From NCBI RefSeq assembly GCF_017641085.1, contig NZ_JAEPPI010000002.1, positions 558,001 through 622,000 of the forward strand: a stretch of 64,000 nt of DNA, written 5' to 3'. Position numbers and translations under genes: made by a program. Positions 1,853 through 22,841 of this stretch are shown piece by piece; position 1 is the first letter of the stretch; each line of letters opens with the position of its first letter. This stretch comes from Gracilimonas sp. GTDB taxonomy: Bacteria; Bacteroidota; Rhodothermia; Balneolales; Balneolaceae. Below the pieces are notes generated by a model, which saw only the letters and a list, made by a program, of their open reading frames with translations, was not told the origin of the DNA and made no database searches.

Positions 1853-1885
1853 AATATTAATTAATCCAAAATACCAAGGGGGTTT

Positions 1886-5921: not shown

Positions 5922-7154
5922 ATGACCACATTATCATACTACTTAAAAAAGCGGAAGAACAAGAATGAACACCCTTTATATCTCAGAGTTACCCATGACA
6001 GGGAATCAAGGTATATACGACTGGATATTGGTCTGGAGAAAGAGCATTGGAATGAGGAAAAAGAAATAGTTCGTAAATCGCACCCCCACTACGAAAAGAT
6101 CAATCGATATCTCAAAGTCAAGAAGCTAGACTCGGACACTCTAGTTTTAGAGCTTAAACAATTCAAGCCAGAAGCTGATATAGACTTAATGCAAAAAGTT
6201 CTTGAAACCGGTTCGTTAGATGGAGTTAAAAAATCCAGTAGAGTAGAGTTTTTAAGCTTTGCCGAAGAGTTAAGAGCTGGTTTCAAAGCTCAAGGTTCAC
6301 TGCAAAGATATAAGAACTATGGAACCGTACTTAATAAGCTCAAGGGTTTTTGGCCAAAGAATAAACTCTACTTCACTGATATGGATGTCCAGTTTCTCAG
6401 ACGCTTTGAAACCCACCTCATCTCGAAACATGGAAATGCAGTGAATACGGTGGGTAACAATATGAAGAAGATTAAAAGGGTGTTTAATGTTGCTATAAAT
6501 GAAGGAAAGATACCAGCTGACCTATATCCATTTCGGATATATAAAATCCCAAGTGAACCTGTCACAAAATCAAAGCTTTCTCAAAATGAAATAAGTGCCA
6601 TTGAATGCCTTGATCTTAAGCCAGGTACTAGAATATTCGATTCCAAAAACATTTTTCTATTTGCCTATTACTGCCGGGGTATGCGCTTTGGAGATGCAGT
6701 AACACTCAAGTGGAGTTCAATAAAAGAGGGTTATCTGGATTATGAAATGAGGAAAACAGGTAAGCGAATGTATTTAAAACTTACCGGCAAGGCGCTAAGG
6801 ATAATAAAGCAATACAGAGGAACGACCAAACCTAATCCCAAGCACTTTGTATTCCCATTATTAGATAATCGTAAAGATTACAGTGATGAAAATTTTCTTT
6901 CCGCACAGATTTCCTCTAAAACAGCCATAGTAAATAAGTACCTGAAAGAAATTAAAGGTCAGACGGATATAAATGAGAATATCACTACCCACATAGCTCG
7001 TCACTCCTTTGCCCAGTTAGCAAATAAGAAAAAGGTAAGGTTGTTGGAGATAAAAGAAATGCTGGGACACTCAAGTGTAGAAACAACCACCAAATACCTA
7101 GAGTCTCTTGGCAATGATCATTTAGACAAAACGGTAGAGGGCTTATTCAACTAA
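5922..7154 (+). CDS. Tyrosine site-specific recombinase (Bacteroidota-type integrase)
   Basis: The 410-aa protein has an N-terminal arm-binding domain (about 1-90), a SAM-like core-binding domain (about 105-200) and a catalytic domain. The catalytic residues appear intact: R255 in GMRFGD, H357-x-x-R360 in HIARHSF, H383 in LGHSS and Y392 in TTTKYLE. It should integrate and excise the element carrying it. The ATG is 1 nt after an inverted-repeat arm, so it may be autoregulated. It lies about 15.6 kb from the tRNA-Arg, which fits an integrase at the tRNA-distal end, though this is inference. Confidence 0.93.
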   Translation: MTTLSYYLKKRKNKNEHPLYLRVTHDRESRYIRLDIGLEKEHWNEEKEIVRKSHPHYEKINRYLKVKKLDSDTLVLELKQFKPEADIDLMQKVLETGSLDGVKKSSRVEFLSFAEELRAGFKAQGSLQRYKNYGTVLNKLKGFWPKNKLYFTDMDVQFLRRFETHLISKHGNAVNTVGNNMKKIKRVFNVAINEGKIPADLYPFRIYKIPSEPVTKSKLSQNEISAIECLDLKPGTRIFDSKNIFLFAYYCRGMRFGDAVTLKWSSIKEGYLDYEMRKTGKRMYLKLTGKALRIIKQYRGTTKPNPKHFVFPLLDNRKDYSDENFLSAQISSKTAIVNKYLKEIKGQTDINENITTHIARHSFAQLANKKKVRLLEIKEMLGHSSVETTTKYLESLGNDHLDKTVEGLFN

Positions 7155-8481: not shown

Positions 8482-10704
8482 ATGGGTAATCTTTCAAAAG
8501 CATTAGAGCTGATAGATAACAACTTTAAGCTTATTCCTTTGCATACACCTACTCCAAATGGCCAATGCTCTTGTGGGCAACGGTGTGACAGCCAAGGTAA
8601 GCATCCCAGAATACGCAATTGGACGGAAAAGGCAAGTAATGACCCCGGCCAAATTAGAGAATGGTGGCAGAAATGGCCGGAGGCAAATATTGGAATTGTT
8701 TGTGGCCGGTTATCCAACATTGTTGTTCTTGATATGGACCCACGGCATAAAGGTGAGGAGTCATTAGAAGCACTAGAACAAGAATTAGGTGTCTTCACGC
8801 AAACAACTACCATAATGACTGGTGGAGGAGGGAAGCATTTTTATTATCTCTATCCCGGAGAAAATAAAATAAGGAACAGCAGTGGAAAACTGGGAGAAGG
8901 CTTAGATGTGAAGACAGACGGTGGTTATGTGGTCGCACCAGGTAGTTTACATAAATCTGGCAGTAAATATGACTTTTTGTTTGGGTTGGAAGAAATCAAG
9001 CCTTTTCCAGACAAGTTGGTAAAGAGATTAAGGAACCATCGTAAAACTGAAAATAAACCGGACCTGAGTTCATCAGACCCAATATGGGAGGGTAAGCGCA
9101 ACGATACATTATTTAGTATTGGCGTAGAATTACGAAAAAGAGGGGCAAACCGAATACAAATTGAGTCCGAACTCATAGATATAAATAGACTACGCTGTAA
9201 TCCCCCTCTAGAAAATTCAGAAATTAAGTCTATTGCAAACAGTGCAAGTAAGGGGCCTGGTTCAGTTAATGGTAATTTTATGAAAAATGCAGAAAACGAA
9301 GAGTATGGTCTCTGGGATACCGAATTTGGTAATGCTAATGAGTTTGTAGAAAGGTTTACTGAGGAGGTTAGATATAACATAGACGGAAAGCATTGGCTGG
9401 TCTGGGATGGAGCAAGATGGAAAAAAGACCCAAATGAACTCATTGTCTCAGGATATGCTAAGAAATTGATAGAGAAAATGTACGAGGAGGCCTCCAAAAT
9501 CAAGGATACAGAATTAAGAGACAAAAAAATTCAACACATTAAAAAATCAGCTAAAGGAACAGGAATAAATGCCATTCTTACGATTGCAAGAACAGACCTA
9601 CGGATTAGAATTACAGAAAATCAGCTCGATCAACGGCTGATGATGATTACCCTGGAAAACCTTACTTATGATCTGGACTCTGGAAAAAAATTAAAGCATA
9701 ATCCCAATCATTTTATCACAAAAAAACTTCCGTTTTCTTTTGATTCAAAAGCAAGGGGGCAAAGGTGGAGAGAGTTTGTTCTACAGATAATGAATGGGGA
9801 TGAGGAAATGGCTTCCTTCCTACAAGAGGCGGTTGGTTATTCACTAACCGGACTTACGTCAGAGCAATGCCTTTTCTTTTTATATGGCCAGGGGAAAAAC
9901 GGTAAAACCACATTTGTGGAAGTTTTAATGAAATTGTTTGATGAATATGCTTGCAAAGCAGAAAATCGAATGATTATGGATGTTGGTAATTCATCAGCTA
10001 TCCCTAACGATGTAGCCAGGTTGAATGGACACAGATTTGTGCTTTTTTCTGAAATTCAAGAAGGTCGAAGGCTTGATGAGGCAAAGGTTAAGAATTTGAC
10101 CGGTGGAGATACCATAACGGCTCGTTTTCTTCGTCAGGAATTTTTTGATTTCGAACCCTCTCATACCATTTGGCTATTTGGCAATCACAAACCATTAATT
10201 TCCGGAACAGATGATGGCATTTGGAGAAGACTTCGGCTGATCAAGTTTGCCCGGCAATTTTCAGAAAAAGAAAGAGATCGGCATCTGCGGGAGAAGTTGT
10301 ATAAGGAATTACCAGGAATTTTTAACTGGGCCCTCGAGGGACTTGAAAAATGGAAGGGTAATGGTAGAAGGTTAGCCATTCCTGAAAAAGTAAAAAGGGA
10401 AACCCTGAATTATCGAGGAGAAATGGATGTGCTCACTTCGTTTATTCAGGAAACGTGTAAGGAGGGTGTGACTTATTCGTGTAGCAATAAAGAATTGCGA
10501 TCTGCTTATGAGCTGTGGTGCTCGGAGAATGGATTACAGGTGATGAGTAACAAAACCATCAACCCGAAACTAGAGCAGAAAGGGTTCAAAAAGTATTATT
10601 CCAATGGCCGAGTACATTGGAAAGGCATAACCCCAGTCTTAGGAAACGAAGTAGAGGAAGTAGAGGATGTAGAGGAAAAATCAGATTATCAGCTAAAAAT
10701 TTAA
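8482..10704 (+). CDS. Primase-helicase (prim-pol N-terminus, D5/P4-type helicase C-terminus)
   Basis: The 740-aa protein begins with a bifunctional primase/polymerase-like domain (about 1-190; IGIVCGRLSNIVVLDMD, GGGGKHFYY, GEGLDVKTDGGYVVAPGS). A primase C-terminal linker follows, then a D5_N region and an SF3 helicase with Walker A YGQGKNGKTT (about 467-476) and Walker B-like RFVLFSEIQEG. The layout is that of phage- and satellite-type replication proteins. The 3' end encodes VEEVEDVEE from three 9-nt units that form half of an iteron array. Its presence argues that the element can replicate autonomously after excision. Confidence 0.9.
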   Translation: MGNLSKALELIDNNFKLIPLHTPTPNGQCSCGQRCDSQGKHPRIRNWTEKASNDPGQIREWWQKWPEANIGIVCGRLSNIVVLDMDPRHKGEESLEALEQELGVFTQTTTIMTGGGGKHFYYLYPGENKIRNSSGKLGEGLDVKTDGGYVVAPGSLHKSGSKYDFLFGLEEIKPFPDKLVKRLRNHRKTENKPDLSSSDPIWEGKRNDTLFSIGVELRKRGANRIQIESELIDINRLRCNPPLENSEIKSIANSASKGPGSVNGNFMKNAENEEYGLWDTEFGNANEFVERFTEEVRYNIDGKHWLVWDGARWKKDPNELIVSGYAKKLIEKMYEEASKIKDTELRDKKIQHIKKSAKGTGINAILTIARTDLRIRITENQLDQRLMMITLENLTYDLDSGKKLKHNPNHFITKKLPFSFDSKARGQRWREFVLQIMNGDEEMASFLQEAVGYSLTGLTSEQCLFFLYGQGKNGKTTFVEVLMKLFDEYACKAENRMIMDVGNSSAIPNDVARLNGHRFVLFSEIQEGRRLDEAKVKNLTGGDTITARFLRQEFFDFEPSHTIWLFGNHKPLISGTDDGIWRRLRLIKFARQFSEKERDRHLREKLYKELPGIFNWALEGLEKWKGNGRRLAIPEKVKRETLNYRGEMDVLTSFIQETCKEGVTYSCSNKELRSAYELWCSENGLQVMSNKTINPKLEQKGFKKYYSNGRVHWKGITPVLGNEVEEVEDVEEKSDYQLKI

Positions 10705-11409: not shown

Positions 11410-12180
11410 TTACTTATATCCCTCCAGCTTATGCTTTCGCTTCTGCCAGTCCGGGAGCACCTTTTTCAGTAAATCATAAAACTTGCTGTCATGCTGAGGG
11501 TGCTTGATGTGACAAAGCTCATGAATTATCACATAATCGATACAGTAAACCGGATGTTTAATTAAATCGGGATTTAGTAAGATATTACCAGAGGCCGTGA
11601 AGCTTCCCCAGCGTTTATCCATGTGATACACTTTGAGCTCGTTAGGTTTTCCAATACCATACTTCTGAACCATATCTAAACAATCCTGGAGTCGGTCTCT
11701 AAACTTTTCCTCGGCTTTTTCCCGGTACCAGGCATCCAATTGAGCTTTTACATGCTTTGGGTTCCCCTTCTGTTTAGAATGAATAAAGAAGTAGCCTCTC
11801 TTTAGCTTGACCGATTCTTCTTCATTTTCAGGTTGTAATACCTTGAGCCTGTATTGTTTGCCTAAATATCGATGAGTTTCACCACTTACATATTCAAACT
11901 CTATCTGTTCATTCTCGAACCGGTCAAAATGTTTGATCTGTTTTGTGATCCACCGTCTCCGGTGTCTCACTTTCTCATAAATTTTATCAAGTGAGCTTTC
12001 CTCTGGTGCCGTAACCCAAACCGTTTGATCGGGATATACAGCAATTTCCAATGTTTCACGACTTGAGTAGCTCAGATTAAATTGAATAGACGTGGTGCCA
12101 TATTCAATCGTCTGAATATTATCGTGTACTAAAGGACTGCTTTGACTTGATGATGGTTTCTGCAATGCGCTCGATGACAT
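11410..12180 (-). CDS. YgjP/SprT-like zinc metallopeptidase (DUF45), last gene of the type I R-M operon
   Basis: The roughly 256-aa protein carries the zinc motif HELCHIKHPQHD near its C-terminus and the family stretch DKRWGSFTASGNILLNP. DUF45/YgjP-like metallopeptidases are regular companions of type I restriction operons, but their role there is not settled. The gene overlaps the 3' end of hsdR by about 60 nt in another frame. The ATG at 12180 is preceded by an in-frame TTG. The overlap indicates translational coupling to HsdR. Confidence 0.82.
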   Translation of the reverse strand: MSSSALQKPSSSQSSPLVHDNIQTIEYGTTSIQFNLSYSSRETLEIAVYPDQTVWVTAPEESSLDKIYEKVRHRRRWITKQIKHFDRFENEQIEFEYVSGETHRYLGKQYRLKVLQPENEEESVKLKRGYFFIHSKQKGNPKHVKAQLDAWYREKAEEKFRDRLQDCLDMVQKYGIGKPNELKVYHMDKRWGSFTASGNILLNPDLIKHPVYCIDYVIIHELCHIKHPQHDSKFYDLLKKVLPDWQKRKHKLEGYK

Positions 12181-15100
12181 CAAAATCTCGTTTAAGGTCT
12201 AATTCTCTGAATAATTCAATCATATAGTCTTCAATAGCAATGAACATCTGATTTTTGACATCGGGATTAGTTTCCCAATCCACAATTGTCAGTTTTTCCA
12301 TTATTTTATCCAATTCAAGACCAGCTTTAGTGTATAATTCTTCTCGTTCTTCTTCATCAACAGGTAGGTAAGCACCGTCAAACTTTTCTTCCAGCTCTTC
12401 TTTAACGCTATTGTAGAAGGACCGTGCTACCGGACGTTCTTTAAGTTCATTTGGAGTGCCATCCCAAATTCCTTGCTTCACACCCTGATTAATATCTTTC
12501 ACTTTTTCCAGGTACTCTTTCTCCGATATTCGGTCGTGTAAAAACTTCTGAATAGTCTCTTCAATTAAGTCAGAGAATTTACGATATAATGCCGGGTCTT
12601 CATCCATACGCTCCTGGATTACCTTCTTAGTCTTACTGGCTATTTCATCCGCTTTAGAGGCATCGGAGCGTTCTTTTTGCTTATTCTGCATCTCAAAGAA
12701 GTTGTCGCTGAATATATCAACCGGATCAACGATTTGATCAATGCCTTCAGTGCCTACATAGGAATCTATGAGCTTCTGCACCCGATCTTCATATTCTCGG
12801 TGATCAATGGCCTCACCGTATCGGATTCGCACAGACCTGCGAAGGTTTTCAAAAAACTTAAGGTCTTTCTTATAGGTGATGATCTTGGATTCATCGATAT
12901 AATCAAACAGCTTGTCTGCAGAAAAAGCGGCCTGAAGGGTGCGAGCAAAGTTTGAGAGTTTCTCATAAAATTCATCTCTCAAGTCATCATGCCTAAGATG
13001 TCGCTCCATTGCCTCATTGTCAGAAGTATCCTCACAGTCCTCAAATAAATCCCAGAGTTCTTGATGGAGTTTGGGTAGGGTTTCCGCAACTTCTTTGATT
13101 GGAGTTACCATTCCTTGTAAGTCTTTCTGCTCAAAACCGCTGAGCGCCGAGTACGTGTTAATAGCATCGGTTAAGGTTCCCAAAATCCCTACATAGTCAA
13201 TAATGAACCCATAATCTTTTCCTTCAAAAAGGCGGTTTACCCGTGCAATTGCCTGAAGCAAGTTGTGCTCTTCCAAATAGCGAGCCATATAAAGCACCGT
13301 ATTATTTGGAGCATCAAAACCGGTTAAGAGTTTGTAGACAACAATCACCAGCTCCACTTCCCGGCTGTCTGATTTAAATAGGTTAACCAGGCTCTTTTCG
13401 TAGTCTTCTTTGTTACTAAACCGATCCATCATTTGTTGCCAGAATATCTGAACTTCATCATTTGGATCGTCATAGGTATCATCATGACCTTCCCTCGTAT
13501 CAGGGGGGGAGATGACAAGTTCTGCATTGATTTGGCCTCGTTCCTTAAAATAGCGGTAATAGCGTACAGCGGTTTTGCGGTCCGGTACGGCAAGCTGTGC
13601 TTTATACTTGGTGTCTTTGAGGTTTTTCAAGAAATGATCGGTTACATCACGGGCAATTTCTTCAATGACTAACTGAGCAGTTAGCACTTTATTCAGCGTA
13701 GAATATCTAAGTTTATAATCAGCAACCTGCTCCTCAGACATATCTTTCATGTCCCGCTCAAATTCCCGATCCAGTTTTTCTTTCCAGGTGTCCAGCTTTG
13801 CAGCACGACCTTCATAGATGATAGGAACCACAGCTCCATCTTCTACGGCCTGATCCATAGAATAGGAATCAATAATACCTCCAAATTTATTGGCAGTATT
13901 CTTTTCATCTTTCATGAGAGGAGTTCCGGTAAATCCCAGGTAACAGGCATTGGGCAGAATCTTTTTCATTTGTGCATGCAGCAATCCGTACTGGGTACGG
14001 TGAGATTCATCTATGAGCACAAAGATGTTGCGAGACTTATTGATTAGATTTTTTTGGTTTAGAGCTGCCTTAAACTTGTTGATAATGGTAGATACGTTTT
14101 CAGCGCCCGGATCTTTAATAAGCTTAGCCAAATGTGTACCACTTCTGGCTTTGGTGATACTTTTACCACAGCTCTTAAATGTTTTATAGAGCTGATCATC
14201 CAAATCTGTGCGGTCTGTAACCAGCAAAATACGCTGGGAGGGAATGTCATCCGCGACGGCCAGGTTTTTAGACATAAACACCATTGTAATCGATTTTCCG
14301 CTACCCTGAGTATGCCAGATAACACCGCCTTTTCTACTACCGTCTGAATCTGTTTGACGGACCCGGCTCATCATTCGTTTAACCCCGAAATACTGCTGAT
14401 ATCGAGCAATCTTACGGGTGTTATTATCAAACACAGTGAAGTTGCGAGTTAGCTCAAGTAGTCGGTCAGGTTTGCATAGGCTGTATAGGTTTAAATCCTG
14501 GGTAGTGGGTTGCCGGTCTTTAGAAGCTGTGAGTGGCTTTTCATAGTAATGGCTTCGAAGTCTTGTCTTCCAATCTTCATTGACATCTGGTTGAGATACC
14601 AACTCCTTCACGACTTTCTCTATGTCTTCTTCTTCTCTCCAGATCGACCAGAACTTCTTACTTGTTCCGGTAGCTGCATACGATAACTCATTCACGCAGG
14701 AAGCAATTAACAACTGGGTAAAATGAAAGAAGCCAGGCACTTCTTCCTTCCCTTGATTGCGCAGATGTTGAGAGATGGCCTCGTCTAAAGCATGTTTTTT
14801 ATCTCTACGCTTATTTTCAATAGCCACAAAGGGGATACCGTTCACAAATAGGACGATATCAACTCGTCGAACCTGTGTTTTCCCTTTGATCTCGAATTCA
14901 TCTGCGACGTGATAAACATTATTCTCGGGATGTTCCCAGTCTACATAGTTGAACGGAAAGCTTTTTTTATCTCCTTTAACGACCTGTTCATAACTTTTCC
15001 CCAAAGTGAGTAGGTCATAAATCTTTTCATTTGTTTTGACCAGTCCTTCATCCAGTTGTTGTTGTAGATCATAAGCCGCCCGGCTAACAGCAGATTCCGG

Positions 15101-15307
15101 GAAGGGCAGGGTTTCCCCTTTGTATTCTATTTTGTTAATCTTGGATAGCTGCTCTTCCATGATATCCGTGAGCACAAACCGAGTCAGTAACCCATCTCGC
15201 ATTTCCAGTGCTTTCTCTGGCGAGATGTAGGTATATCCCATCTGTTGCAACAAGCGAATAGCTGGCAGCTGAGAGTCTTTGTCTTCAAGGTATGTTGATT
15301 GACTCAT
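12119..15307 (-). CDS. hsdR: Type I restriction enzyme, R (motor/nuclease) subunit
   Basis: The 1062-aa protein has a PD-(D/E)xK nuclease (D150, E164-x-K166 in VDIVLFVNGIPFVAIENK) and SF2 translocase motifs, including Walker A TQGSGKS (334-340) and DEAD-like LIDESHRTQYG. These are followed by the C-terminal helical region that docks to HsdM. It should translocate and cleave unmodified DNA with HsdM2S. The length is normal and no frame break is seen. It is separated from hsdS by five other genes, an unusual spacing described under findings. Confidence 0.95.
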   Translation of the reverse strand: MSQSTYLEDKDSQLPAIRLLQQMGYTYISPEKALEMRDGLLTRFVLTDIMEEQLSKINKIEYKGETLPFPESAVSRAAYDLQQQLDEGLVKTNEKIYDLLTLGKSYEQVVKGDKKSFPFNYVDWEHPENNVYHVADEFEIKGKTQVRRVDIVLFVNGIPFVAIENKRRDKKHALDEAISQHLRNQGKEEVPGFFHFTQLLIASCVNELSYAATGTSKKFWSIWREEEDIEKVVKELVSQPDVNEDWKTRLRSHYYEKPLTASKDRQPTTQDLNLYSLCKPDRLLELTRNFTVFDNNTRKIARYQQYFGVKRMMSRVRQTDSDGSRKGGVIWHTQGSGKSITMVFMSKNLAVADDIPSQRILLVTDRTDLDDQLYKTFKSCGKSITKARSGTHLAKLIKDPGAENVSTIINKFKAALNQKNLINKSRNIFVLIDESHRTQYGLLHAQMKKILPNACYLGFTGTPLMKDEKNTANKFGGIIDSYSMDQAVEDGAVVPIIYEGRAAKLDTWKEKLDREFERDMKDMSEEQVADYKLRYSTLNKVLTAQLVIEEIARDVTDHFLKNLKDTKYKAQLAVPDRKTAVRYYRYFKERGQINAELVISPPDTREGHDDTYDDPNDEVQIFWQQMMDRFSNKEDYEKSLVNLFKSDSREVELVIVVYKLLTGFDAPNNTVLYMARYLEEHNLLQAIARVNRLFEGKDYGFIIDYVGILGTLTDAINTYSALSGFEQKDLQGMVTPIKEVAETLPKLHQELWDLFEDCEDTSDNEAMERHLRHDDLRDEFYEKLSNFARTLQAAFSADKLFDYIDESKIITYKKDLKFFENLRRSVRIRYGEAIDHREYEDRVQKLIDSYVGTEGIDQIVDPVDIFSDNFFEMQNKQKERSDASKADEIASKTKKVIQERMDEDPALYRKFSDLIEETIQKFLHDRISEKEYLEKVKDINQGVKQGIWDGTPNELKERPVARSFYNSVKEELEEKFDGAYLPVDEEEREELYTKAGLELDKIMEKLTIVDWETNPDVKNQMFIAIEDYMIELFRELDLKRDFDVIERIAETIIKSKQSFSTR

Positions 15308-15311
15308 ACTG

Positions 15312-15794
15312 TTAATTTTTTGGTTTTATAAACAGTTGTTCACCTTCACTCAGGTAATAGGAGTCTTTATTAGTGGTGGTATTCTCCTTCTCCCACAATT
15401 CTTCTAGTGTATCGAGCTTCTGATACCAATAGTTCATCCCCGCTTGCCAAGAACTCCATATTTTTGGATCAATCCTGCCCTTTGAGTGCCAAAGTCTTTC
15501 CTCAGCACATAAGTTTAGATAATCATTGAGCTTGCTATACAGCTCTGGCTTATTCTCTCTAAGAAAGTTTAGGTCAACATTCTGATTATTGCTTTCAAGG
15601 GTCTTGATATCATGTAACTTATCATTTAATTCATCATACCAATCATTAAACCGTATTAAAAGGGTATGATTAAATTCATCTTCAGCCAATTTATGTTGGC
15701 TTTTTGAATACTTATATGTGACCCAAAGTCCAGCCCCACCAAGTATTATACCTTGAATTCCAAACTTTATTATCTCCAACCAAAATTCACTCAT
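15312..15794 (-). CDS. Single-TM protein between the CBASS-like pair and hsdR
   Basis: The 160-aa product has an N-terminal membrane segment (about residues 9-28, IKFGIQGIILGGAGLWVTYK) and a soluble part with FNDWYDELNDKL and YLNLCAEERLWHSKGRID. The soluble part looks like the helical DUF4760-type domains found in small membrane proteins of unknown role. It ends 4 nt before the hsdR start, so the two are probably coupled, while 78 nt separate it from the CD-NTase gene. I cannot assign a function; it could belong to either neighbour or be a separate effector. Confidence 0.65.
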   Translation of the reverse strand: MSEFWLEIIKFGIQGIILGGAGLWVTYKYSKSQHKLAEDEFNHTLLIRFNDWYDELNDKLHDIKTLESNNQNVDLNFLRENKPELYSKLNDYLNLCAEERLWHSKGRIDPKIWSSWQAGMNYWYQKLDTLEELWEKENTTTNKDSYYLSEGEQLFIKPKN

Positions 15795-15872
15795 AAGTTG
15801 CTCCTATTACTACAAATCTATTTATTTAATTTGTACTCCTAATTCGATTGATTTAAACCAATCCATATGGTA

Positions 15873-16691
15873 TCAGTTTAGGGGTGGAAATATTTTTTTT
15901 AGTATGTCTACAGCATCACTTTCATGTCCTTTCTTTTTAAACCGTTTAATCACATCCACACGATCTTTGAGACGCCCAATTTTTTCTCTTTTCCAGTCAG
16001 GGTCATTCCATGAATTGGTAATGCCATTAACAAATTCATAGAAATAATCCTCTAACTTTTCATTTGAGAAATATTGGTACATGAAAGGATTTACATAGAA
16101 GGCTTTAAGTATTTTTTCTTCTAAGTCAAATGACCTGAAAGGATACTTATTTACTGCATTCCAGTATTTAATCACCCTAATCAAAGGCTTGATGAGGGAA
16201 TTATTTTCTTTGTTTGATATTACAAGGTCAGTTTCAAGTTCCAATGGACTTGTTCTAACCCAGTCATCATAGGATGATGCTTTATCTGGTATTCTATATT
16301 CTGCTGCTCTCCAAAAACTTGATAGTGCTGGGACTAGCTCAAAATGGATATGACTTAAGGATAAAATGATAGTAGGATGTGATTGTTTTATCTCTGATCT
16401 GGAATATTTCATATCTGAAAACCTTCTCAGTCTATCCAAGTAGGTTTGAGGTTTGTAGTTGTCATCTTTAAAAACAATCATGTAATCTACATCAGAGTTG
16501 CTATCCATTTTTCTAGGCATCATTGTATCTCTATTTGAAGAGCCAAACTGGAAGTGATCAGTTAAATCAGATCCAAAATATTGATTCAATCTATCAGAAA
16601 GTGTCGAAATTGACCTCTTGATATTTTGCTTTTCCTCATCTCTGACGATAGCTTGGTTTGCAATACTCGTTAAATAACTATTGATGGTCAT
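15873..16691 (-). CDS. CD-NTase-like (SMODS-type) nucleotidyltransferase
   Basis: The 272-aa protein shows the CD-NTase active site: GSS (50-52), paired acids D67/D69 in NSDVDYMIVF, and a third acid E118 in HIHFELVPAL. CD-NTases make cyclic oligonucleotides that switch on CBASS effectors. Its start ATG overlaps the stop of the SLATT gene (TAATG), so the two are translationally coupled. An effector with two membrane helices encoded directly upstream fits a minimal CBASS-like system. The product nucleotide cannot be read from sequence. A Glu at the third position is the family norm for SLATT-linked members as I recall it. Confidence 0.85.
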   Translation of the reverse strand: MTINSYLTSIANQAIVRDEEKQNIKRSISTLSDRLNQYFGSDLTDHFQFGSSNRDTMMPRKMDSNSDVDYMIVFKDDNYKPQTYLDRLRRFSDMKYSRSEIKQSHPTIILSLSHIHFELVPALSSFWRAAEYRIPDKASSYDDWVRTSPLELETDLVISNKENNSLIKPLIRVIKYWNAVNKYPFRSFDLEEKILKAFYVNPFMYQYFSNEKLEDYFYEFVNGITNSWNDPDWKREKIGRLKDRVDVIKRFKKKGHESDAVDILKKIFPPLN

Positions 16692-17194
16692 TATTCTTTA
16701 GTATCTATTCGGTGTGTACTACGACCTTCATCTATGTCCTTCTTAGCTTGGTCATAGTCTTTTCTACTTATTGAAGGTGAGTTTTGATTTAAATCATCCC
16801 TTATTTCACCCAATTCTTTAATCCTTTTTTTGGCGAAATCTTCATCGAAACTATGCTCTAAGTCAATCTCCCGGAAAATTCTTGTTTGATTTCTGAGCTT
16901 TAAATATTGGTTACCAGCACTTTTGTGAAGCTCAGATTTTTCAGATGGTTTGAGAAAAGTCAATGTTGTAGTAAGTGCCGTGGAAACGGCTGCAAGAATA
17001 AGGGCAAGTACCGTTTCTTCTCCAATATATGCCCCTCCTGAAAGTGCAACTGCTAAAGCCGAAGGCAGTCCAATTGTATAGTGATACTTCTTCCACCGGT
17101 TACCTGCATTAAAGTGACTGCGGGCAGAATGATCAACATCTTCTTCAATGCGTGAAGCTTCATTAGCTACTTTTGTTTTTAAATCAGACATCAT
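16691..17194 (-). CDS. SLATT-domain two-TM protein, putative CBASS-like effector
   Basis: The 167-aa product has two adjacent membrane segments (about residues 38-59, YHYTIGLPSALAVALSGGAY, and 63-84, TVLALILAAVSTALTTTLTF). They are flanked by helical regions with RSHFNAGNRWKKYHY and LHKSAGNQYLKLRNQTRIF. This is the pattern of SLATT proteins, predicted pore-forming effectors tied to SMODS/CD-NTase enzymes. It precedes and overlaps the CD-NTase gene. The expected role is membrane disruption once the nucleotide signal is made; that is known for other TM effectors and inferred here. Confidence 0.8.
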   Translation of the reverse strand: MMSDLKTKVANEASRIEEDVDHSARSHFNAGNRWKKYHYTIGLPSALAVALSGGAYIGEETVLALILAAVSTALTTTLTFLKPSEKSELHKSAGNQYLKLRNQTRIFREIDLEHSFDEDFAKKRIKELGEIRDDLNQNSPSISRKDYDQAKKDIDEGRSTHRIDTKE

Positions 17195-17211
17195 GTTTCC
17201 TTTATGGATGT

Positions 17212-17496
17212 TTAAACGTTTAACCCTTTATTCCTCAAATAAAGCAGATGAGTAGCTGGTTCAATAACTTCTGTATCAATAAATGTTCTATATAGGCTTT
17301 CAGGATCATCAAAAGAGGCGTTCAATCGTCCGATATCAGTACCTCCGCGATTGACTAGTAGCCTGTTGTCTGTTACTCGAAAGCGATCTGTTGCATGTGG
17401 ATGAAACCAATACTCACCATCCTTTTCCATTCCAAATTCAATCAGGCTTTCTTCTTCGAAATTTATTAATAGGGTATATAACTCATCACTGGTCAT
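17212..17496 (-). CDS. Unknown 94-aa protein between Shedu and SLATT genes
   Basis: No family is recognised. The product is short, acidic, without membrane segments, and looks like one alpha/beta domain (EYWFHPHATDRFRVTDNRLL in the middle). It lies 14 nt after the Shedu stop and 17 nt before the SLATT start, in the same direction. It is therefore almost certainly translated as part of the defence operon. It could be an accessory, inhibitor or sensor for either neighbour. Confidence 0.65.
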   Translation of the reverse strand: MTSDELYTLLINFEEESLIEFGMEKDGEYWFHPHATDRFRVTDNRLLVNRGGTDIGRLNASFDDPESLYRTFIDTEVIEPATHLLYLRNKGLNV

Positions 17497-17510
17497 AGTC
17501 TTATATTTTT

Positions 17511-18701
17511 TTAAAAAGGTAAATCGTTATCCCAATCTTCAAATTCATCATTTTCGACATTATTGAATGATTCTTTGGAGTCCATTACACTATTTAATTC
17601 TTGTTGGTTCACAATGAATTTTGCTCGCTCATAAAGTTCATCAAATGTGATGATTTCTGGATTTGATAGATTTCTTCTGTAAAGTTCAAAAGTAGATCTT
17701 GCGTCTACAGATTCTTGTAATTGATTTGTATCTCCAATAACTAAGATACCTTTTGGTTGATAGGTGAATATCTCCTGCGATGTAAGTTGTTCAAAGTCAT
17801 CAGTTCTTTTTGAACCTTCTGTGTACCATCGGTGGCAATTTGATTGAAGCTGGGAGACACCTCCGGTTAATTCATCATGAAGTAGAAGGGCACCATTTCT
17901 ATGTCTTTTCAACTCTTTTTTTGAGTTTTTTTGAAAAAATGGAGTATCAGGTTTTTTGATTTCTACAAGAACAGTAAAACGGACTTTTGCTTCTGTATTC
18001 ATTAAGAAATCACCTTTCTGAGATCCCTTCCCGGTATACCCTCTGCCTCCATAATCTGGCTGATCTTCCAGTAAATGCAAGAACCGATAGTTCAACCCAT
18101 ATCCGAAAATCCAAGTATTCTTTTCAAAGTATTTTTGCCACCATTGCTCATCTAATTGGGATGTTCTCTCAAGAGATTGTGTAAAATGTTTAAGCGAATT
18201 TTCACGGTTTTGCTGAATCCTCGCGTTAGCCAGCTTGGTTGCCAAATCAGGCTTTTGATCTAATAGCTCTTGCCAAATTTCATCACCAAAATCCTGCTCA
18301 AGTAGTCTTTGAACAAAAACTCTTCGGCTGGCATCAACTTTTATAATCTGATCAGCTCTTTCTACCGTCCATTCTTTTTCACCCCTTGGCAATCCATCTT
18401 TGGCAATTTCATATAAATGATTTAGAGCTTCAAAAAGTCTATTCATTTGTTTGCTTCTCAAGAGAAGTTTTACACCTTCACCTCCTTTTAAGGTATTTAG
18501 GTTGATTGACTCTGTATCCTCCCAATCATCATTTACATTTTTTCGTTGATGTATAATGTAGCCCCGTACATATACTTTGCCATCTTTCCGGGTAATTTGA
18601 GGTCGGAATATTTTTCTGGTATGTCCAGGGGCTTCATCAAGAATAATATCCTCAACATCCACTGAATTTCGTGAAGTACTTCTTGTTTTATATGTAGTCA
18701 T
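17511..18701 (-). CDS. sduA: Shedu-type nuclease SduA (DUF4263)
   Basis: The 396-aa protein has a C-terminal PD-(D/E)xK domain with D231 (GDFLMNTE), E247-x-K249 (FTVLVEIKKPDTPFF) and a glutamine-rich follow-up (GGVSQLQSN), matching the DUF4263 signature of Shedu. The N-terminal half (about 1-180) is the variable regulatory/sensor part. Shedu is a single-gene anti-phage nuclease whose N-terminal domain senses DNA ends or other cues in studied cases. Here it sits 20 nt downstream of hsdS, within a type I R-M operon, so it may be co-expressed with the methylase. Confidence 0.87.
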   Translation of the reverse strand: MTTYKTRSTSRNSVDVEDIILDEAPGHTRKIFRPQITRKDGKVYVRGYIIHQRKNVNDDWEDTESINLNTLKGGEGVKLLLRSKQMNRLFEALNHLYEIAKDGLPRGEKEWTVERADQIIKVDASRRVFVQRLLEQDFGDEIWQELLDQKPDLATKLANARIQQNRENSLKHFTQSLERTSQLDEQWWQKYFEKNTWIFGYGLNYRFLHLLEDQPDYGGRGYTGKGSQKGDFLMNTEAKVRFTVLVEIKKPDTPFFQKNSKKELKRHRNGALLLHDELTGGVSQLQSNCHRWYTEGSKRTDDFEQLTSQEIFTYQPKGILVIGDTNQLQESVDARSTFELYRRNLSNPEIITFDELYERAKFIVNQQELNSVMDSKESFNNVENDEFEDWDNDLPF

Positions 18702-18721
18702 AGTACCTCTTAGTTTTTGAT

Positions 18722-19981
18722 TTACACTTTAACCCTCACCTTCCCAGTCAGTAACTGCTGCATCAAACCTTTCTTCTGCTGCTGATACTTTTCAAGTTGT
18801 TCCTCTAACAACTCAATTTCACTCATAGCCTCATTTAATATTGAAGCTATCTTCTTTTGCTCCTTATATTGAGGTAATGTGAGATTGATCTCAAAAAACT
18901 CTTTCACACTTACATTCAGTAAGCCGTGATTGCGGGCTCCTTCTCGGGCAATCTTATAAATGCCGTGGTCCAACCCACCATATTCGAAGAAGTGGGTAAT
19001 AAAATCACTATCTACATTATCTGAGGCTAATTTGAAACAAATATATAAAGGAGACAATACACCCTTTTCATAATCATGAAGCCTTTTTATGGCCCCTAAT
19101 GGATAACCTTCTGAATAGCTTTTGTTGTAAGCAAAGTCACCCTGTCTTAAAACGATGTAGTTGGACAAGTCCTTACTTGCTACTGATTTATTATAGTAGT
19201 CTGTTTGACTTACTAAACCATCCTGAGCGGAAATAGTTAATACGTTTTTTACAGATTCTGATTCGTTCTTTTCAGTGACTCTATCAAATACCTCACCTAA
19301 CTTCACCTCAACCCAATCTTCTCCTTCAAATTCCGGAAAGCGAACTTTGCCGGCAAGCAGCCGCTGCATGAGGCCTTTTTTATACTGCTTCTTGGCTTGG
19401 ATGAGCTTTTGTACTTTAGAAATAGCTTTATCCCAAGCATTTATCACTTCAAGAATCAGATCTTGTTCTTTAATAGGAGGTAACAATATTGGCATCCTCC
19501 TATACTCCTTGGAATTAACCCCTGGTTGACCACTTCTTTGTGAAATCGCCTGTATCCAATTTCTATAAAAAGCTGTATCAGTATAGAGTTTCAAGAATTT
19601 TGGTCTTATTATATTTGGGTCAGGTTCGAATTTAATAAGATAGCCCGCATAAACTAACTTCCCATTTTCCTCTTTATGCAAATATGTTTTGCCTACAGTG
19701 TTTCCGGTTCTGGCAAATACTATTTCACCTTCTTCTAATAAGTATTTAGCGTAATCCTCACTATCCACGGATTTTTCACCATCCTGTTTTAGATTACCAT
19801 AATCATCTATATCGGTTATTCTAAGATATCTTGGTTTTTGGGGATCATAATCTGAAGCAGATTCATTAATTCCATACCTGCCATTTCCTTTTATACACTC
19901 TCCCAAAGGAGCAACACTCCAGCCTTCAGGGGTATTCTTTATTTCAGGGCCAATATATTTTTTGTTACTAACCATAATCAC
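18722..19981 (-). CDS. hsdS: Type I restriction enzyme, S (specificity) subunit
   Basis: The 419-aa protein contains two target-recognition domains (about 15-170 and 225-385). Each is followed by a conserved coiled spacer with matching ends: KKGLMQRLLAGKVRFPEF after the first and KKGLMQQLLTGKVRVKV after the second. It should set the bipartite DNA target for HsdM and HsdR. A GTG at 19981 overlaps the hsdM stop (GTGA); the ATG at 19975 is an equally good start. Both recognition domains are full length. Confidence 0.93.
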   Translation of the reverse strand: MIMVSNKKYIGPEIKNTPEGWSVAPLGECIKGNGRYGINESASDYDPQKPRYLRITDIDDYGNLKQDGEKSVDSEDYAKYLLEEGEIVFARTGNTVGKTYLHKEENGKLVYAGYLIKFEPDPNIIRPKFLKLYTDTAFYRNWIQAISQRSGQPGVNSKEYRRMPILLPPIKEQDLILEVINAWDKAISKVQKLIQAKKQYKKGLMQRLLAGKVRFPEFEGEDWVEVKLGEVFDRVTEKNESESVKNVLTISAQDGLVSQTDYYNKSVASKDLSNYIVLRQGDFAYNKSYSEGYPLGAIKRLHDYEKGVLSPLYICFKLASDNVDSDFITHFFEYGGLDHGIYKIAREGARNHGLLNVSVKEFFEINLTLPQYKEQKKIASILNEAMSEIELLEEQLEKYQQQKKGLMQQLLTGKVRVKV

Positions 19982-21474
19982 AGATTCAGGTTTGCTAACT
20001 TATTCTTCAACTCACTCTGTACCTTGGTCAACTCATCTTCAAGAGTGTCCAATTCATTTTGGACCTCTTCAATATCCACTTCAGCCTCTGGTTCAAACGT
20101 ATCCACATAACGGGGTATGTTCAGGTTGTAATCGTTTTCCTTGAGCTCATCCGGTGAAGCCACATACGAGTATTTGTCTTTCTCCTCAACGGCCTCATAG
20201 GTCTCTACAATTTTATCAATGTCTTCTTGCCGTAGCTTATTCTGTCGGGTACCTTTCTCAAAGCCTTTGCTGGCATCAATAAAGAGCACATCTTCTTTTT
20301 TCTTGGCTTTGTTGAATATCAGAATTGCTGCCGGTATTCCGGTACCAAAGAAGAGGTTCTCAGGAAGCCCAACCACGGCTTCCAACAGGTTCTCTTTAAT
20401 CAACGCTTCCCGAATACGCCCTTCAGCCCCGCTTCGAAATAATACTCCATGCGGGACAATCACCCCAACCTTGCCTTTCTTCTCTTTCGCCGTTTCAATC
20501 ATGTGCTGGATAAAGGCGTAATCAGCGCGGCTCTTAGGAGGGATGCCCCTGGAGTAACGATTGTACGGATCATCCTTGGCATCTTCCTTTCCCCACTTAT
20601 CCAAACTAAAGGGAGGATTAGCCACAACAATGTCAAACTTCATGAGCTCGTCATCTTCTACTAAATCAGGACTGTTCAAGGTATCACACCATCGTATATC
20701 AGCGGCATCCATACCATGAAGAAACATGTTCATTTTTGCTAGTGCCCAGGTGCTCCCGTTACTTTCCTGTCCGTAAATACGAAAATCTTTTCCATCCACC
20801 TCTTCGGCAACAGTAATAGCAAGAGACCCTGAACCAATGGCCGGATCACAAATACGATCACCGGACTTTGGCTTCAGTAGCTTGGCCAATAATTCAGAGA
20901 CTTCATGAGGGGTATAAAATTCCCCGCCTTTTTTACCGGCATCTGAAGCAAAGCGCTCAATCAGATACATATACCCATTACCAATAATGTCTTCCGTACC
21001 AATCACAGAAGGGCGGAAGTTCAGTTCTTTTTTATTGAAATCATTGATCAGGTTCTTGAGTCGGCGGTTCCTATCTTTGGTTTTCCCAAGGTTACTTTCT
21101 GAGTTGAAATCAACGTTTCGGAATACCCCCTCCAGTTTCTCATAATTCGCCTCTTCAATTTTCTCCAAGGCTTTGTTGATCTTATTCCCGAGATCATCGG
21201 CATTCTGGTTTTCTACCAGGTAATCAAAGGAGCAGTTCTCAGGCAGTACAAAGCGCTCTCGCTTCATTCGGCGACGGATCAACTCTTCATCGTCTCCATA
21301 TTCCTCTTTGTACTTATCGTAGTGATCTTTCCATACATCACTTAAGTACTTAAGAAAGAGAAATACGAGGATGTAATTTTTATACTCCGAAGGATCTACT
21401 ACCCCACGAAAGGTGTCGCAGGCAGACCATAAAGCATTGTTAATTTCCTGTTGAGTTGGTTTGTAATCTGTCAT
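19978..21474 (-). CDS. hsdM: Type I DNA methyltransferase, M subunit (N6-adenine)
   Basis: The 498-aa protein has the HsdM N-terminal helical domain (FRGVVDPSEYKNYILVFLF), the entry motif GGEFYTPHEV (183-192), the AdoMet-binding motif DPAIGSGSLA (210-219) and the catalytic NPPF (286-289) of N6-adenine methylases. Its C-terminus carries the coiled stretch that contacts HsdS. It modifies host DNA with HsdS. It overlaps hsdS by 3-4 nt and lies 29 nt downstream of a half-HsdS gene. Confidence 0.95.
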   Translation of the reverse strand: MTDYKPTQQEINNALWSACDTFRGVVDPSEYKNYILVFLFLKYLSDVWKDHYDKYKEEYGDDEELIRRRMKRERFVLPENCSFDYLVENQNADDLGNKINKALEKIEEANYEKLEGVFRNVDFNSESNLGKTKDRNRRLKNLINDFNKKELNFRPSVIGTEDIIGNGYMYLIERFASDAGKKGGEFYTPHEVSELLAKLLKPKSGDRICDPAIGSGSLAITVAEEVDGKDFRIYGQESNGSTWALAKMNMFLHGMDAADIRWCDTLNSPDLVEDDELMKFDIVVANPPFSLDKWGKEDAKDDPYNRYSRGIPPKSRADYAFIQHMIETAKEKKGKVGVIVPHGVLFRSGAEGRIREALIKENLLEAVVGLPENLFFGTGIPAAILIFNKAKKKEDVLFIDASKGFEKGTRQNKLRQEDIDKIVETYEAVEEKDKYSYVASPDELKENDYNLNIPRYVDTFEPEAEVDIEEVQNELDTLEDELTKVQSELKNKLANLNL

Positions 21475-21503
21475 AAAATTGGTGCTATTAAGTATTCTTT
21501 GGC

Positions 21504-22085
21504 TTATTTAGAATTCAGTTTGTCAATTTGCTGTTGAAGTAACTCATCAATGAGTTGTTCTTTTTTTGCGGCAATCTCTTTGTGTAAATAAATTTCCCTT
21601 CTCTTAAGCGTGTCTAAATTTGCAATCCTTTGCTGCTCGTCCAATGATGGTAATACAACCTCAAGAGCCTCCAGGGCTTTGATGGAAAGGTTTGGGACAT
21701 TAGTCCCGGCGGCCATCTCTTTAAAGAAATATTGGGCTCGTTTTGAGTTCAGAAACCAGGCTAAATATTCAGGTAGAATACGATGTAAGTCTGGCTTCAT
21801 CACCAAAAAACTGTTAATTGTAACAGCTCTTCCAAGGTTTTCAGGTATAACAAAGGCATCGATATTATATCCCTTGCTGATCATAATTACGTCACCAGCT
21901 TTCAAGAAATACCGGTCATTCCTGGGGTCAAAGTCACGAAGAGTTTGTAATTTTTCTACCAATATTCCCTCATACTTATCTACGTCACCCATTTGTATAA
22001 CCTTGGTTTCACCAGAAGGGTGGTGCTTAATCTTGGTGCGAAACGAGTACCCAGTCGATATTTCAGCTATTTCTTTAAGTTTCAC
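21504..22085 (-). CDS. Half-length HsdS-like protein, first gene of the R-M operon
   Basis: The 193-aa product has one target-recognition domain (MKLKEIAEISTGYSF ... LEVVLPSLDEQQRI) and one helical spacer (about 145-193). It is therefore half of a normal S subunit, and it is full length for the short family rather than a truncation with a broken frame. It begins with GTG (22085), shortly after the inverted repeat TTTATGCAG/CTGCATAAA. Being first in the operon and beside a palindrome, it could be a DNA-binding regulator or form a homodimeric S subunit. Both ideas are inference. Confidence 0.8.
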   Translation of the reverse strand: MKLKEIAEISTGYSFRTKIKHHPSGETKVIQMGDVDKYEGILVEKLQTLRDFDPRNDRYFLKAGDVIMISKGYNIDAFVIPENLGRAVTINSFLVMKPDLHRILPEYLAWFLNSKRAQYFFKEMAAGTNVPNLSIKALEALEVVLPSLDEQQRIANLDTLKRREIYLHKEIAAKKEQLIDELLQQQIDKLNSK

Positions 22086-22091
22086 GCGGTT

Positions 22092-22176
22092 TTTATGCAG
22101 TAAAGTGTTTCTGCATAAATGTAATCAACATTTATAGCTTTTACAAGATTATTTGCGGTAAACGTTTACTGCATGT
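22092..22176. promoter_or_regulatory. Palindromes between the R-M operon and the divergent 22235 gene
   Basis: TTTATGCAG (22092-22100) and CTGCATAAA (22111-22119) are perfect inverted copies just upstream of the half-HsdS start. A second near-palindrome GCGGTAAACGTTTACTGC (22157-22174) has one mismatch. ATGCAGTAAA at 22095-22104 and TTTACTGCAT at 22167-22176 are inverse copies of one 10-mer that also stands before the integrase. The site can control both directions or serve as recombinase arm sites. Confidence 0.55.
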
Positions 22177-22234
22177 ATATTTAAGTGTCTACAAATACCA
22201 TAAAAACAGATAATTACCCTATATAAGTTAAATT

Positions 22235-22558
22235 ATGAGTTCTATCAAAGCTGAAATTCAATATCCAAAAAACCTAAATACTTATAGCATTGAGGCTTTA
22301 AATGGTAAGGTGGATATTATCAAGTTATGTGATCATGTATTAGAGGGCGAAGAAAGATATGTTTTTGAGGTTGATGGGGTTGAACAGCACAACCATAAGG
22401 GCAAAAAGCTAAAGATAGAAATTAGCAGGGCTTTGGTGGACCAAATTGTTGAACAGATTCTCGAGCTTCAGAAAGTTTCTCCTGAAAGTCATTTTACTAC
22501 ATCGGAGGGAGAGACCTATTACTTTCACAAACCCAAAACAAAGTCGATCGAGTTTTAA
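22235..22558 (+). CDS. Unknown 107-aa protein at the tRNA-proximal end of the island
   Basis: I do not recognise the family. The product is a small, charged, soluble protein (start MSSIKAEIQYPKNLN; RYVFEVDGVEQHNH in the middle; SEGETYYFHKPKTK at the end) with no membrane segment. It is divergent from the ten-gene R-M/defence operon across a palindrome-rich 149-nt gap. It is the last gene before the tRNA-Arg boundary. It may belong to the element or be the regulator that uses the palindromes; neither is shown. Confidence 0.6.
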   Translation: MSSIKAEIQYPKNLNTYSIEALNGKVDIIKLCDHVLEGEERYVFEVDGVEQHNHKGKKLKIEISRALVDQIVEQILELQKVSPESHFTTSEGETYYFHKPKTKSIEF

Positions 22559-22572
22559 ATATTAGTAATAAA

Positions 22573-22592
22573 TGTACCCTTATTTGTACCCT
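22573..22592. repeat. Tandem TGTACCCT direct repeat near the island edge
   Basis: TGTACCCT occurs at 22573-22580 and 22585-22592 (12-bp spacing), followed by an A-run. Short direct repeats of this kind near a tRNA-proximal island end are often integrase arm sites; that reading is inferred. The rest of 22559-22720 shows no gene. Confidence 0.4.
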
Positions 22593-22720
22593 CAAAAAAA
22601 GCTGCGGTTTGGCTGGAGGTCTAATAATAAAAGAGGGATTTGGAATAAAAGCTCGGTCTGAGCAAAATAGGGCAGGAAAAAGCAAATGTTTGCCATATGT
22701 TGGCCAAGCTAAAAATAAAA

Positions 22721-22760: not shown

Positions 22761-22767
22761 TAATAAG

Positions 22768-22841
22768 TACGCCCGGAAGGATTCGAACCCTCAGCCTTCT
22801 GATCCGAAGTCAGACGCTCTATCCGGTTGAGCTACGGGCGC
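22768..22841 (-). tRNA. tRNA-Arg, anticodon TCG
   Basis: On the minus strand the acceptor arms GCGCCCG and CGGGCGT pair (first pair G:U). The D arm contains AGCTCAACCGGATAGAGC, the anticodon arm is TCTGA-CTTCGGA-TCAGA with TCG as anticodon (reads CGA and related Arg codons), and the T arm has GGTTCGAATCC. The discriminator base is A, and no CCA is encoded. It is downstream of queA in the same direction and followed by a strong terminator. Its 3' end marks the island edge. Confidence 0.95.

Follow-up and report, generated by a model that had tools for sequence, protein, structure and literature searches.

A Gracilimonas type I restriction–modification operon with nested defence cargo belongs to a Bacteroidota operon family with two cargo slots and paired sites ahead of a half-HsdS gene

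Introduction

The nesting of one defence system inside another has been described for type I restriction–modification (R-M) operons, and here we compare the known cases with an operon of Gracilimonas sp. at 11410-22085 of a 64,000-nt stretch of DNA (G000:C2:558001-622000, the whole of which we call the window), in which a Shedu gene and a pair resembling a cyclic oligonucleotide-based antiphage signalling system (CBASS) lie between hsdS and hsdR. In enteropathogenic Escherichia coli, the RRDM island is ordered RptR, HsdM/HsdS, DarTG2, HsdR and M48, and the accessible part of its description calls the hsdS-hsdR site a potential recombination hotspot (PMC12255303). As far as that part goes, the island resembles the window operon in placing a defence system between hsdS and hsdR, a regulator gene (in the window, a candidate regulator) first and a zinc peptidase gene last. 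It differs in that RptR (79 aa) acts on TAGCTA, whereas the window operon and its relatives begin with half-HsdS, an HsdS with one target-recognition domain, and have two sites at the head (58 nt apart in the window), two cargo slots and more varied cargo. In Vibrio cholerae, TgvAB is embedded in the type I operon of Vibrio pathogenicity island 2 (VPI-2); there too, the type I R-M operon of a mobile island encloses a complete second defence system, but only one, and the portion of the report at hand mentions no half-HsdS (PMC11411939). The same portion names RloF of the Campylobacter jejuni hsd loci. Papers on 'guilt-by-embedding' have also been published. The hsd loci of C. jejuni reportedly carry variable R-linked or M-linked open reading frames (ORFs) between hsdS and hsdR or between hsdM and hsdS, and they resemble our operons in having variable ORFs in both inter-hsd positions; we know of no half-HsdS head or paired operator in them.

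Control by a linked first gene has a precedent in Mycoplasma gallisepticum, where a regulator of the C-protein family upstream of the type I hsd genes appears to repress the operon (PMC12707154). The control that we propose for the window would likewise be exerted over a whole type I operon by a linked first gene, but, going by the available sections of that source, the M. gallisepticum regulator is a helix-turn-helix (HTH) C protein, whereas the window operon has no HTH gene and its candidate is half-HsdS. Half-HsdS methyltransferases have been described as EcoR124I-NT and M.AhdI (PMC2877798) and as the CC398-1 half-S (PMC6158711). Like the half-HsdS of the window they have one target domain and a helix; they dimerise and read palindromic bipartite sites, with a spacer of N7 for EcoR124I-NT, as in the motif GTA(N7)TAC described below, and of N5 for the CC398-1 half-S. 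In the accessible parts of those papers they are modification enzymes, none of them described as binding its own promoter, and our searches of open-licence PubMed Central papers turned up none in which a half-HsdS regulates the promoter of its own gene.

We show by comparison of gene order that the window locus is a cargo-bearing member of a family of Bacteroidota type I R-M operons, which we call chassis operons. Nesting itself is known; what appears to be new is a two-slot chassis with a paired-site head and a seemingly fixed half-HsdS. Our reading, to which we assign a probability of roughly 60%, is that the chassis operon holds exchangeable cargo and is autoregulated by half-HsdS, probably with HsdM, at the paired sites.

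Materials and methods

Loci were first selected by HsdM, with matches in 9 of 128 genomes at the order level (E ≤ 1e-120) and in 32 of 394 genomes at the phylum level (E ≤ 1e-150), giving 35 genomes besides that of the window. We fetched 28 loci (L007, L008, L012-L037) and left out seven matches (G184, G311, G424, G337, G388, G442, G239), mostly near a contig end. With the window included, 24 loci were readable in full, the HsdR of L021 and the head of L024 being cut by the contig, such that L024 begins at HsdM. Outside these 24 stand L013, L017, L036 and L037, which are cut or incomplete, and L027, which was skipped by the ORF script and in which tblastn found half-HsdS, HsdM, HsdS, HsdR and YgjP in order, with cargo not assigned.

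A second set came from aligning half-HsdS against named genome contigs and taking the best 80 of 128 relatives; removal of L038 and L095 (the same loci as L032 and L029) left 78 loci (group 1), whose record titles are Bacteroidota except for one Methylotenera and one metagenome-assembled genome of Ignavibacteriaceae. For the control set, we scanned 61 genomes of the phylum with PF12161, obtained matches in 42 and fetched 40 other type I loci, in 38 of which HsdM was recognised by profiles.

Cargo profile scans covered representatives rather than each cargo protein. Family-less small ORFs (130-133 aa) were counted as cargo in L014, L023 and L034, and the slot counts were unchanged on a recount with family names stripped. 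Motifs were sought as pairs of the form XYZ(Nk)Z'Y'X' in 27 regions upstream of half-HsdS. The loci of family f26, which have a distant half-HsdS subclass, seen while exploring were L021, L022, L025 and L034-L037, with L022 in genus g74 and the rest in g69; nine extra g69 loci were fetched afterwards, of which L172 (144 nt only) was left out.

Results

A two-slot scaffold recurs across Bacteroidota

The 24 full loci share one scaffold order: half-HsdS, HsdM, slot A, HsdS, slot B, HsdR and a YgjP-like gene. Cargo is present in all 24, with slot B occupied in 22 (not in L018 or L019) and slot A in 19 (not in the window, L014, L022, L026 or L031); the window operon has nothing in slot A, and its slot B contains Shedu, a 94-aa gene, a pair made of a SLATT protein and a cGAS/DncV-like nucleotidyltransferase (CD-NTase), and a 160-aa membrane protein. 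The YgjP gene directly follows HsdR in 21 of the 23 HsdM-selected loci in which its place is visible, L019 and L026 being the two without it. The second set gives the same picture. HsdM comes after half-HsdS with at most one ORF between them in 76 of 78 loci, and wherever HsdM, HsdS and HsdR are all visible (56 of 78) the scaffold order is kept, with an ORF of at least 100 aa in slot B in every case (56/56) and in slot A in 40 of 56. A full HsdR was seen in 32 of these loci, with YgjP next in 24; seven of the others stop at the locus end, and the start of YgjP in L092 was found by tblastn.

A first-pass annotation of the window had described defence genes nested in a type I operon with small gaps, in which the methylase comes first and restriction last, and the order of modification genes before HsdR recurs in the 24 and the 56 loci. 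That annotation had also proposed looking for the same gene order in related bacteria. The exact order of ten genes was found in no other locus examined, but the scaffold order and sub-cassettes of the cargo do recur.

The ten-gene operon in the window

All ten leftward genes are present, and the names given to them in the first-pass annotation are backed by Pfam and PADLOC profiles, which name eight; neither collection has a family for the 94-aa or the 160-aa protein. From head to tail on the minus strand, the operon begins with half-HsdS, the proposed autoregulator (21504..22085; PF01420, 1.8e-15), of 193 aa with one target-recognition domain and a 45-residue C-terminal helix. It is followed by HsdM, a type I N6-adenine methyltransferase (19978..21474; PF02384, 2.7e-108, and PF12161, 2.8e-34, that is, N6_Mtase and HsdM_N), and by an HsdS of 419 aa with two target-recognition domains (18722..19981; PF01420, 9.2e-17, in two stretches; PADLOC Specificity_I, 2.4e-111). 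The cargo of slot B consists of Shedu SduA (17511..18701; PF21407, SduA_N, 1.3e-21; PF14082, SduA_C, 2.3e-31), the family-less 94-aa protein (17212..17496), a SLATT-type protein with two transmembrane segments (2TM) resembling a CBASS effector (16691..17194; PADLOC PDLC00712, 3.3e-62, with Pfam SLATT_4 at 1.1e-5, slightly below the cut-off), an SMODS CD-NTase (15873..16691; PF18144, 9.1e-34; PADLOC Cyclase PDLC00769, 1.1e-99) and, last, a 160-aa protein with a single transmembrane segment (15312..15794). The scaffold closes with HsdR, the restriction/translocase subunit (12119..15307; PF04313, PF18766 and PF22679, corresponding to HSDR_N, SWI2/SNF2 and T1R_D3; PADLOC REase_I, 1.7e-191), and a YgjP-like zinc metallopeptidase (11410..12183; PF01863, 1.2e-54), whose family we take to be the former DUF45.

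By these profiles the R-M part comprises an HsdM with the N6-adenine methylase fold, a two-target-domain HsdS and an HsdR with a nuclease N-terminus and an SF2 translocase, and the Shedu protein has both its nuclease domain and its N-terminal domain above the cut-off. The putative CBASS has the SMODS CD-NTase beside a 2TM/SLATT effector, the two genes overlapping. These foreign defence genes share the strand of hsdS and hsdR, between which they lie at gaps of -1 to 78 nt. Over the whole operon, the intergenic gaps from head to tail are 29, -4, 20, 14, 17, -1, 78, 4 and -65 nt (negative values being overlaps); the last was computed with the longest YgjP start, a TTG, and the real start is probably later. 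A simple scan of the coding strand found no terminator-like site in any intergenic gap, and promoter-like matches, counted on both strands with models of E. coli-type promoters only, numbered 22 against a shuffle mean of 34.3, i.e. fewer than expected. Because of the tight gaps, the lack of terminator-like sites in them and the few promoter-like matches, a single transcript for the ten genes is plausible.

The 94-aa protein accompanies either Shedu or the SLATT/CD-NTase pair: its relatives in L007 (61%) and L008 (49%) sit in the same slot, one weak match lies elsewhere, and in all it was seen in 4 of 146 genomes including its own. A search of genome contigs and plasmids with this protein found nothing, and its single-sequence AlphaFold2 (AF2) model was poor (mean predicted local distance difference test score, pLDDT, 48.7) and was not used. 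The 160-aa protein has a 50% relative in L008 and relatives in seven other genomes, and in the five of these examined, over ~1.5 kb to either side or as far as the contig reaches, none of the neighbours resembles the window CD-NTase or SLATT protein. Since its distant relatives occur away from such genes, it need not be a CBASS part, and we dropped it as a dedicated component. The first-pass annotation had suggested that both small genes may be new components; both are family-less, and the 94-aa gene occurs with the one cargo as well as with the other.

Nesting is common in type I operons of the phylum

Inserts were present in 11 of 13 control loci with the order M-S-R and a visible HsdR, and in 7 of 8 with the order R-S-M. 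Nesting is therefore common in the type I operons of this phylum, and nesting as such is already in print; we accordingly dropped the notion that it is distinctive of the window operon. A half-HsdS before HsdM was found in none of the 38 control loci with a recognised HsdM (L130 has one after HsdM), and three short YgjP-like matches (103-110 aa) were seen in control loci.

The nested controls, together with the published cases of defence genes embedded in type I operons, would fit ordinary defence-island stacking, in which defence genes stack up because type I operons tolerate recombination, no common control exists, half-HsdS supplies a second restriction specificity (it keeps the HsdS fold) and an unlinked host regulator binds the head sites. 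We consider this account unlikely. Chassis operons hold more inserts than M-S-R controls (a mean of 4.1 vs 1.5 insert ORFs of at least 90 aa in 56 vs 13 loci; Mann-Whitney p = 2e-6), and an unlinked regulator would need to travel with a mobile locus. Two further lines of evidence, the head sites and the divergence of half-HsdS, bear on it below.

Paired sites lie at the operon head

In the 27 upstream regions, a pair of GTA(N7)TAC sites was found in 10 loci, whereas 200 shuffles averaged 0.005 and never exceeded 1, their best motif of any kind reaching 6. Tested on the loci fetched afterwards, the pair was present in 74 of 78 (100 shuffles: mean 0.05, maximum 1; best shuffled motif of any kind 17), at a spacing of 64-66 nt in 64 of the 74, and the four loci without it (L089, L103, L113, L116) have one site each. 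Since the loci are related, with a mean half-HsdS identity of 0.64 (400 random pairs of 62 loci), the 78 are not independent events. The same pairs occur elsewhere in the 78 loci twice in 1.26 Mb; none was found in 687 kb of control R-M loci or upstream of 100 control hsd genes. A stricter TTTGTA form occurs once in six whole genomes, at the chassis of G185. In viral contigs 32 stretches match the site pattern, which we take as chance. The pairs thus accompany operons headed by half-HsdS in many records from Bacteroidota, and control hsd genes showed none upstream, which argues against mere stacking of defence genes.

The window belongs to another site class, in which CAGNAA occurs twice. Its upstream copy, an operator-like 20-nt near-palindrome beginning CAGTAA, lies at 22154..22173 on the minus strand, and the downstream copy, beginning CAGAAA, at 22096..22115 on the same strand, 58 nt away and just before the half-HsdS start; the spacing of 58 nt is also found in L012 and L014. 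A CAGNAA pair 57-60 nt apart is present in four of the seven exploratory f26 loci (L021, L034, L035, L037) and one at 56-60 nt in six of the eight further testable g69 loci, 10 of 15 in total, compared with 1 of 78 group-1 loci; for the new g69 loci alone, which represent one genus, the enrichment gives a Fisher p = 4e-7. The identification of the window sites rests on this cross-locus conservation, because the palindrome test on the single locus failed (29 of 60 shuffles reach its score). Two conserved sites before half-HsdS are, by this comparison, a shown and new feature of these operons. The conserved control feature would then be the paired-site promoter region at the head, rather than the internal staging, protection first and killing later, that the first-pass annotation had envisaged.

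In group 1, the spacer bases of the sites vary, and a TAnnTTTG box is overlapped by the downstream copy, whose first base mostly lies 25-26 nt ahead of the start of half-HsdS. The box is presumably the Bacteroidota -7 box. Such a position is typical of a repressor, and it counts against half-HsdS being an activator, or a C-protein-like activator/repressor, instead of a simple repressor; the upstream copy, mostly 64-66 nt before the downstream one, would be in a possible activator position, and we rate this alternative as quite improbable. It is also conceivable, though unlikely, that half-HsdS with HsdM methylates GTA(N7)TAC and that the mark rather than occupancy sets the promoter, being read by a host protein or by RNA polymerase. 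Each half-site does contain an adenine, as type I targets do, and, in the available parts of the sources, palindromic sites are methylated by half-HsdS dimers working with HsdM (PMC6158711, PMC2877798) and a review has a section on promoter methylation as a means of controlling R-M genes (PMC12707154). A methylation mark would not, however, demand two sites at a near-fixed distance, and we found no report of the motif GTA(N7)TAC in the open-licence literature searched.

Two other known modes of control find no counterpart at the head of the window operon. For an RptR-type switch, the first gene is half-HsdS instead and there is no TAGCTA within 21900-22900, the RptR profile not having been searched. 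For a C protein, no HTH family was found by Pfam among the ten genes; an HTH_17 gene at 8191-8475 belongs to the core of the surrounding element, and the divergent 107-aa ORF was not scanned. This 107-aa gene (22235-22558) was considered as the regulator and dropped, as the stretch is absent in L012, which retains the paired sites.

Half-HsdS as the candidate regulator

Half-HsdS stands first wherever the operon head is visible, and no scaffold protein other than it, HsdS and HsdM would be expected to recognise a DNA sequence. Its AF2 model (mean pLDDT 86.9) comprises one half of an HsdS and the 45-residue helix, i.e. the one-target-domain fold with a dimerisation helix. The best Foldseek match of this model was Esub1 (PDB 8vsr, E 1e-12, TM 0.77), followed by HsdS chains, and the half-HsdS profile also matches PDB HsdS chains. 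Esub1 (8vsq, 8vsr) is the nearest fold, as judged by structure and PDB title only; the titles describe a co-crystal with a protein named Prx, and our literature search found no paper on it. No half-HsdS relatives were found in viral contigs. GTA(N7)TAC fits the geometry expected of a half-HsdS dimer, because its N7 separates 3-bp half-sites as in GAAN7TTC, which the engineered dimer of the EcoR124I N-terminal half recognises according to the accessible part of PMC2877798. As a palindromic bipartite target with a 5-8 nt spacer, it suits group 1 but for its asymmetric flanks, and the CAGNAA site of the window is less clear.

Across 253 pairs from 23 loci, half-HsdS identity follows that of HsdM (r = 0.88), compared with r = 0.12 and 0.13 for the two HsdS target domains, and in the 25 pairs with HsdM identity above 0.72 its mean is 0.60 vs 0.28 and 0.37. 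The specificity of half-HsdS thus seems to stay the same as that of HsdS varies, and its failure to diversify like the HsdS target domains counts against stacking. Nor would stacking account for the site class differing with half-HsdS subclass, as it does even though HsdM identity does not separate the loci (0.613 vs 0.608). L013 is a case in point: its HsdM is window-like (85%), its half-HsdS is 31-33% identical, and it has no CAGNAA pair. In L043, half-HsdS with its paired sites is directly followed by a 424-aa open frame without similarity to HsdM (L043:2970-4241), which runs off the contig and matches nothing in Pfam or PADLOC; a GmrSD gene lies upstream. Here the same control may act on another kind of operon.

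Several observations weigh against autoregulation by half-HsdS. Reviews state, in the parts available, that an S subunit without M does not bind DNA, so half-HsdS alone may not suffice and probably acts in a complex with HsdM; L043, whose contig ends 1.3 kb after half-HsdS, would then need HsdM in trans. When all 253 pairs are averaged, half-HsdS identity (0.329) is barely above that of target domain 2 (0.316; target domain 1, 0.255), the domains having been cut at fixed residues. The window-type half-HsdS is scarcely nearer to f26 than to group 1 (0.316 vs 0.292), and in the 27-locus set the site class correlates with half-HsdS and HsdM alike, so that the two are only partly separable. As for the sites, the two sides of the group-1 consensus differ (TTTGTAG at left, TAC at right), so that it is no clean palindrome, the window pair is not GTA(N7)TAC and alone is no better than shuffles, the second f26 copy is not palindromic, and no clear pair was found in L020, L022, L023, L026 or L028.

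Cargo is exchanged between chassis operons

The cargo is diverse. CD-NTase systems include SLATT/CD-NTase (window, L008), HNH-SAVED/CD-NTase (L008, L015, L033), patatin/DncV/E2-like (L016) and SMODS-AGS_C with SLATT_4 (L032); other named cargo comprises Pycsar (L028), Qat (L025) and Shedu (window, L007). Among 100 cargo proteins clustered by BLAST, the RhuM and Fic clusters account for 11 and 9, and LA2681-type HEPN, KilA-N, Bro-N, YhcG nuclease and the PADLOC candidates PDC-S05, S06, S39, M29A and M41A were also seen.

Comparison of single loci shows that Shedu and CBASS are exchangeable as judged by gene content. The window and L012, of the same genus, are alike in HsdM (88%), HsdR (85%) and HsdS (85%) and have no cargo in common. 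L007 presents the reverse: its Shedu is 81% identical to that of the window, yet HsdM and HsdR are only 60% and 45% identical. The DNA similarity between window and L007 (78.7%) begins at window position 18778, within the last part of hsdS, and does not extend past 17210, where the 94-aa gene ends; in L007, HsdR comes next. L007 thus has the Shedu/94-aa cassette but no CBASS pair, and L008 combines the 94-aa gene with SLATT, CD-NTase and the 160-aa protein but lacks Shedu, so that the window looks like a composite of two cassettes with the 94-aa gene in common. These comparisons do not support R-M, Shedu and CBASS as a fixed co-operating set: L007 lacks CBASS, L008 lacks Shedu and L012, despite its 88% HsdM, has neither.

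Some loci show further arrangements. In L082, L105 and L112, BLAST similarity places a CD-NTase in slot A (with an E2-like protein too in L082 and L105) and HNH-SAVED in slot B, and because the two occupy different slots, the CBASS of these loci appears to be split by hsdS. L008 has both slots of one R-M operon filled with different CD-NTase systems (L008:6036-12102). L012 carries RhuM in slot A (L012:3634-4662) and a related RhuM-Fic protein in slot B (5970-6980), and a 1271-aa cargo protein of L020 (L020:5425-9240) has no Pfam match and a marginal PADLOC hit only.

The operon travels on an integrative element

A tRNA-Arg(tcg) gene at 22767..22841 on the minus strand is the likely integration site. 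A 15-bp direct repeat, a copy of the tRNA 3' end, lies at 22765-22779, and its second copy lies ~33 kb away near L006:7811, where G+C drops. Between the repeats are a tyrosine integrase (5922..7154, plus strand; PF00589, PF13102, PF17293), the HTH_17 gene of the element core (8191-8475), a Prim-Pol/D5 primase-helicase (8482..10704, plus strand; PF09250, PF08706) and the AbiEi/AbiEii and Gabija GajA/GajB genes. In L012, which belongs to the same genus and likewise adjoins tRNA-Arg, and in L014, relatives of integrase, primase and HTH protein are neighbours of this R-M operon, with identities of 82% and 52% for the integrase and 67% and 56% for the primase. The tRNA repeats and these shared neighbours indicate that the operon is cargo of a 33-kb integrative element at tRNA-Arg. 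The AbiE pair and then the Gabija pair at 225-5360 of the window add to the operon's systems, such that the element holds at least five defence types. In its left arm, G+C is higher at L006:12526-15836, with genes that, judged by eye, we take to be an IS110-like transposase and a UmuC-like gene.

Discussion

The mechanism that we favour would work as follows. Half-HsdS would be a DNA-binding subunit of fixed specificity, acting as a homodimer and probably together with HsdM. This complex would bind both head sites and repress the operon at rest, placing all cargo under the feedback control of the modification complex. How repression might end is more speculative: infection could lift it by titrating the complex to incoming unmodified DNA or, alternatively, YgjP could cut half-HsdS, and the whole set of R-M and cargo genes would then be expressed. 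The complete picture, in which a restriction specificity subunit has turned into a transcription factor that, with HsdM on two targets of its own, holds down R-M and cargo genes until infection releases them all, is one that we put forward tentatively, at somewhat less than even odds.

The control of type I R-M operons is little known, and the paired-site head with half-HsdS offers a directly testable candidate controller. Since the same promoter would drive many unrelated embedded systems, a newly swapped-in cassette would gain ready-made control. The chassis also serves as a search handle: genes in its slots are defence candidates, and several of them, such as the 94-aa gene and the 1271-aa protein of L020, are family-less.

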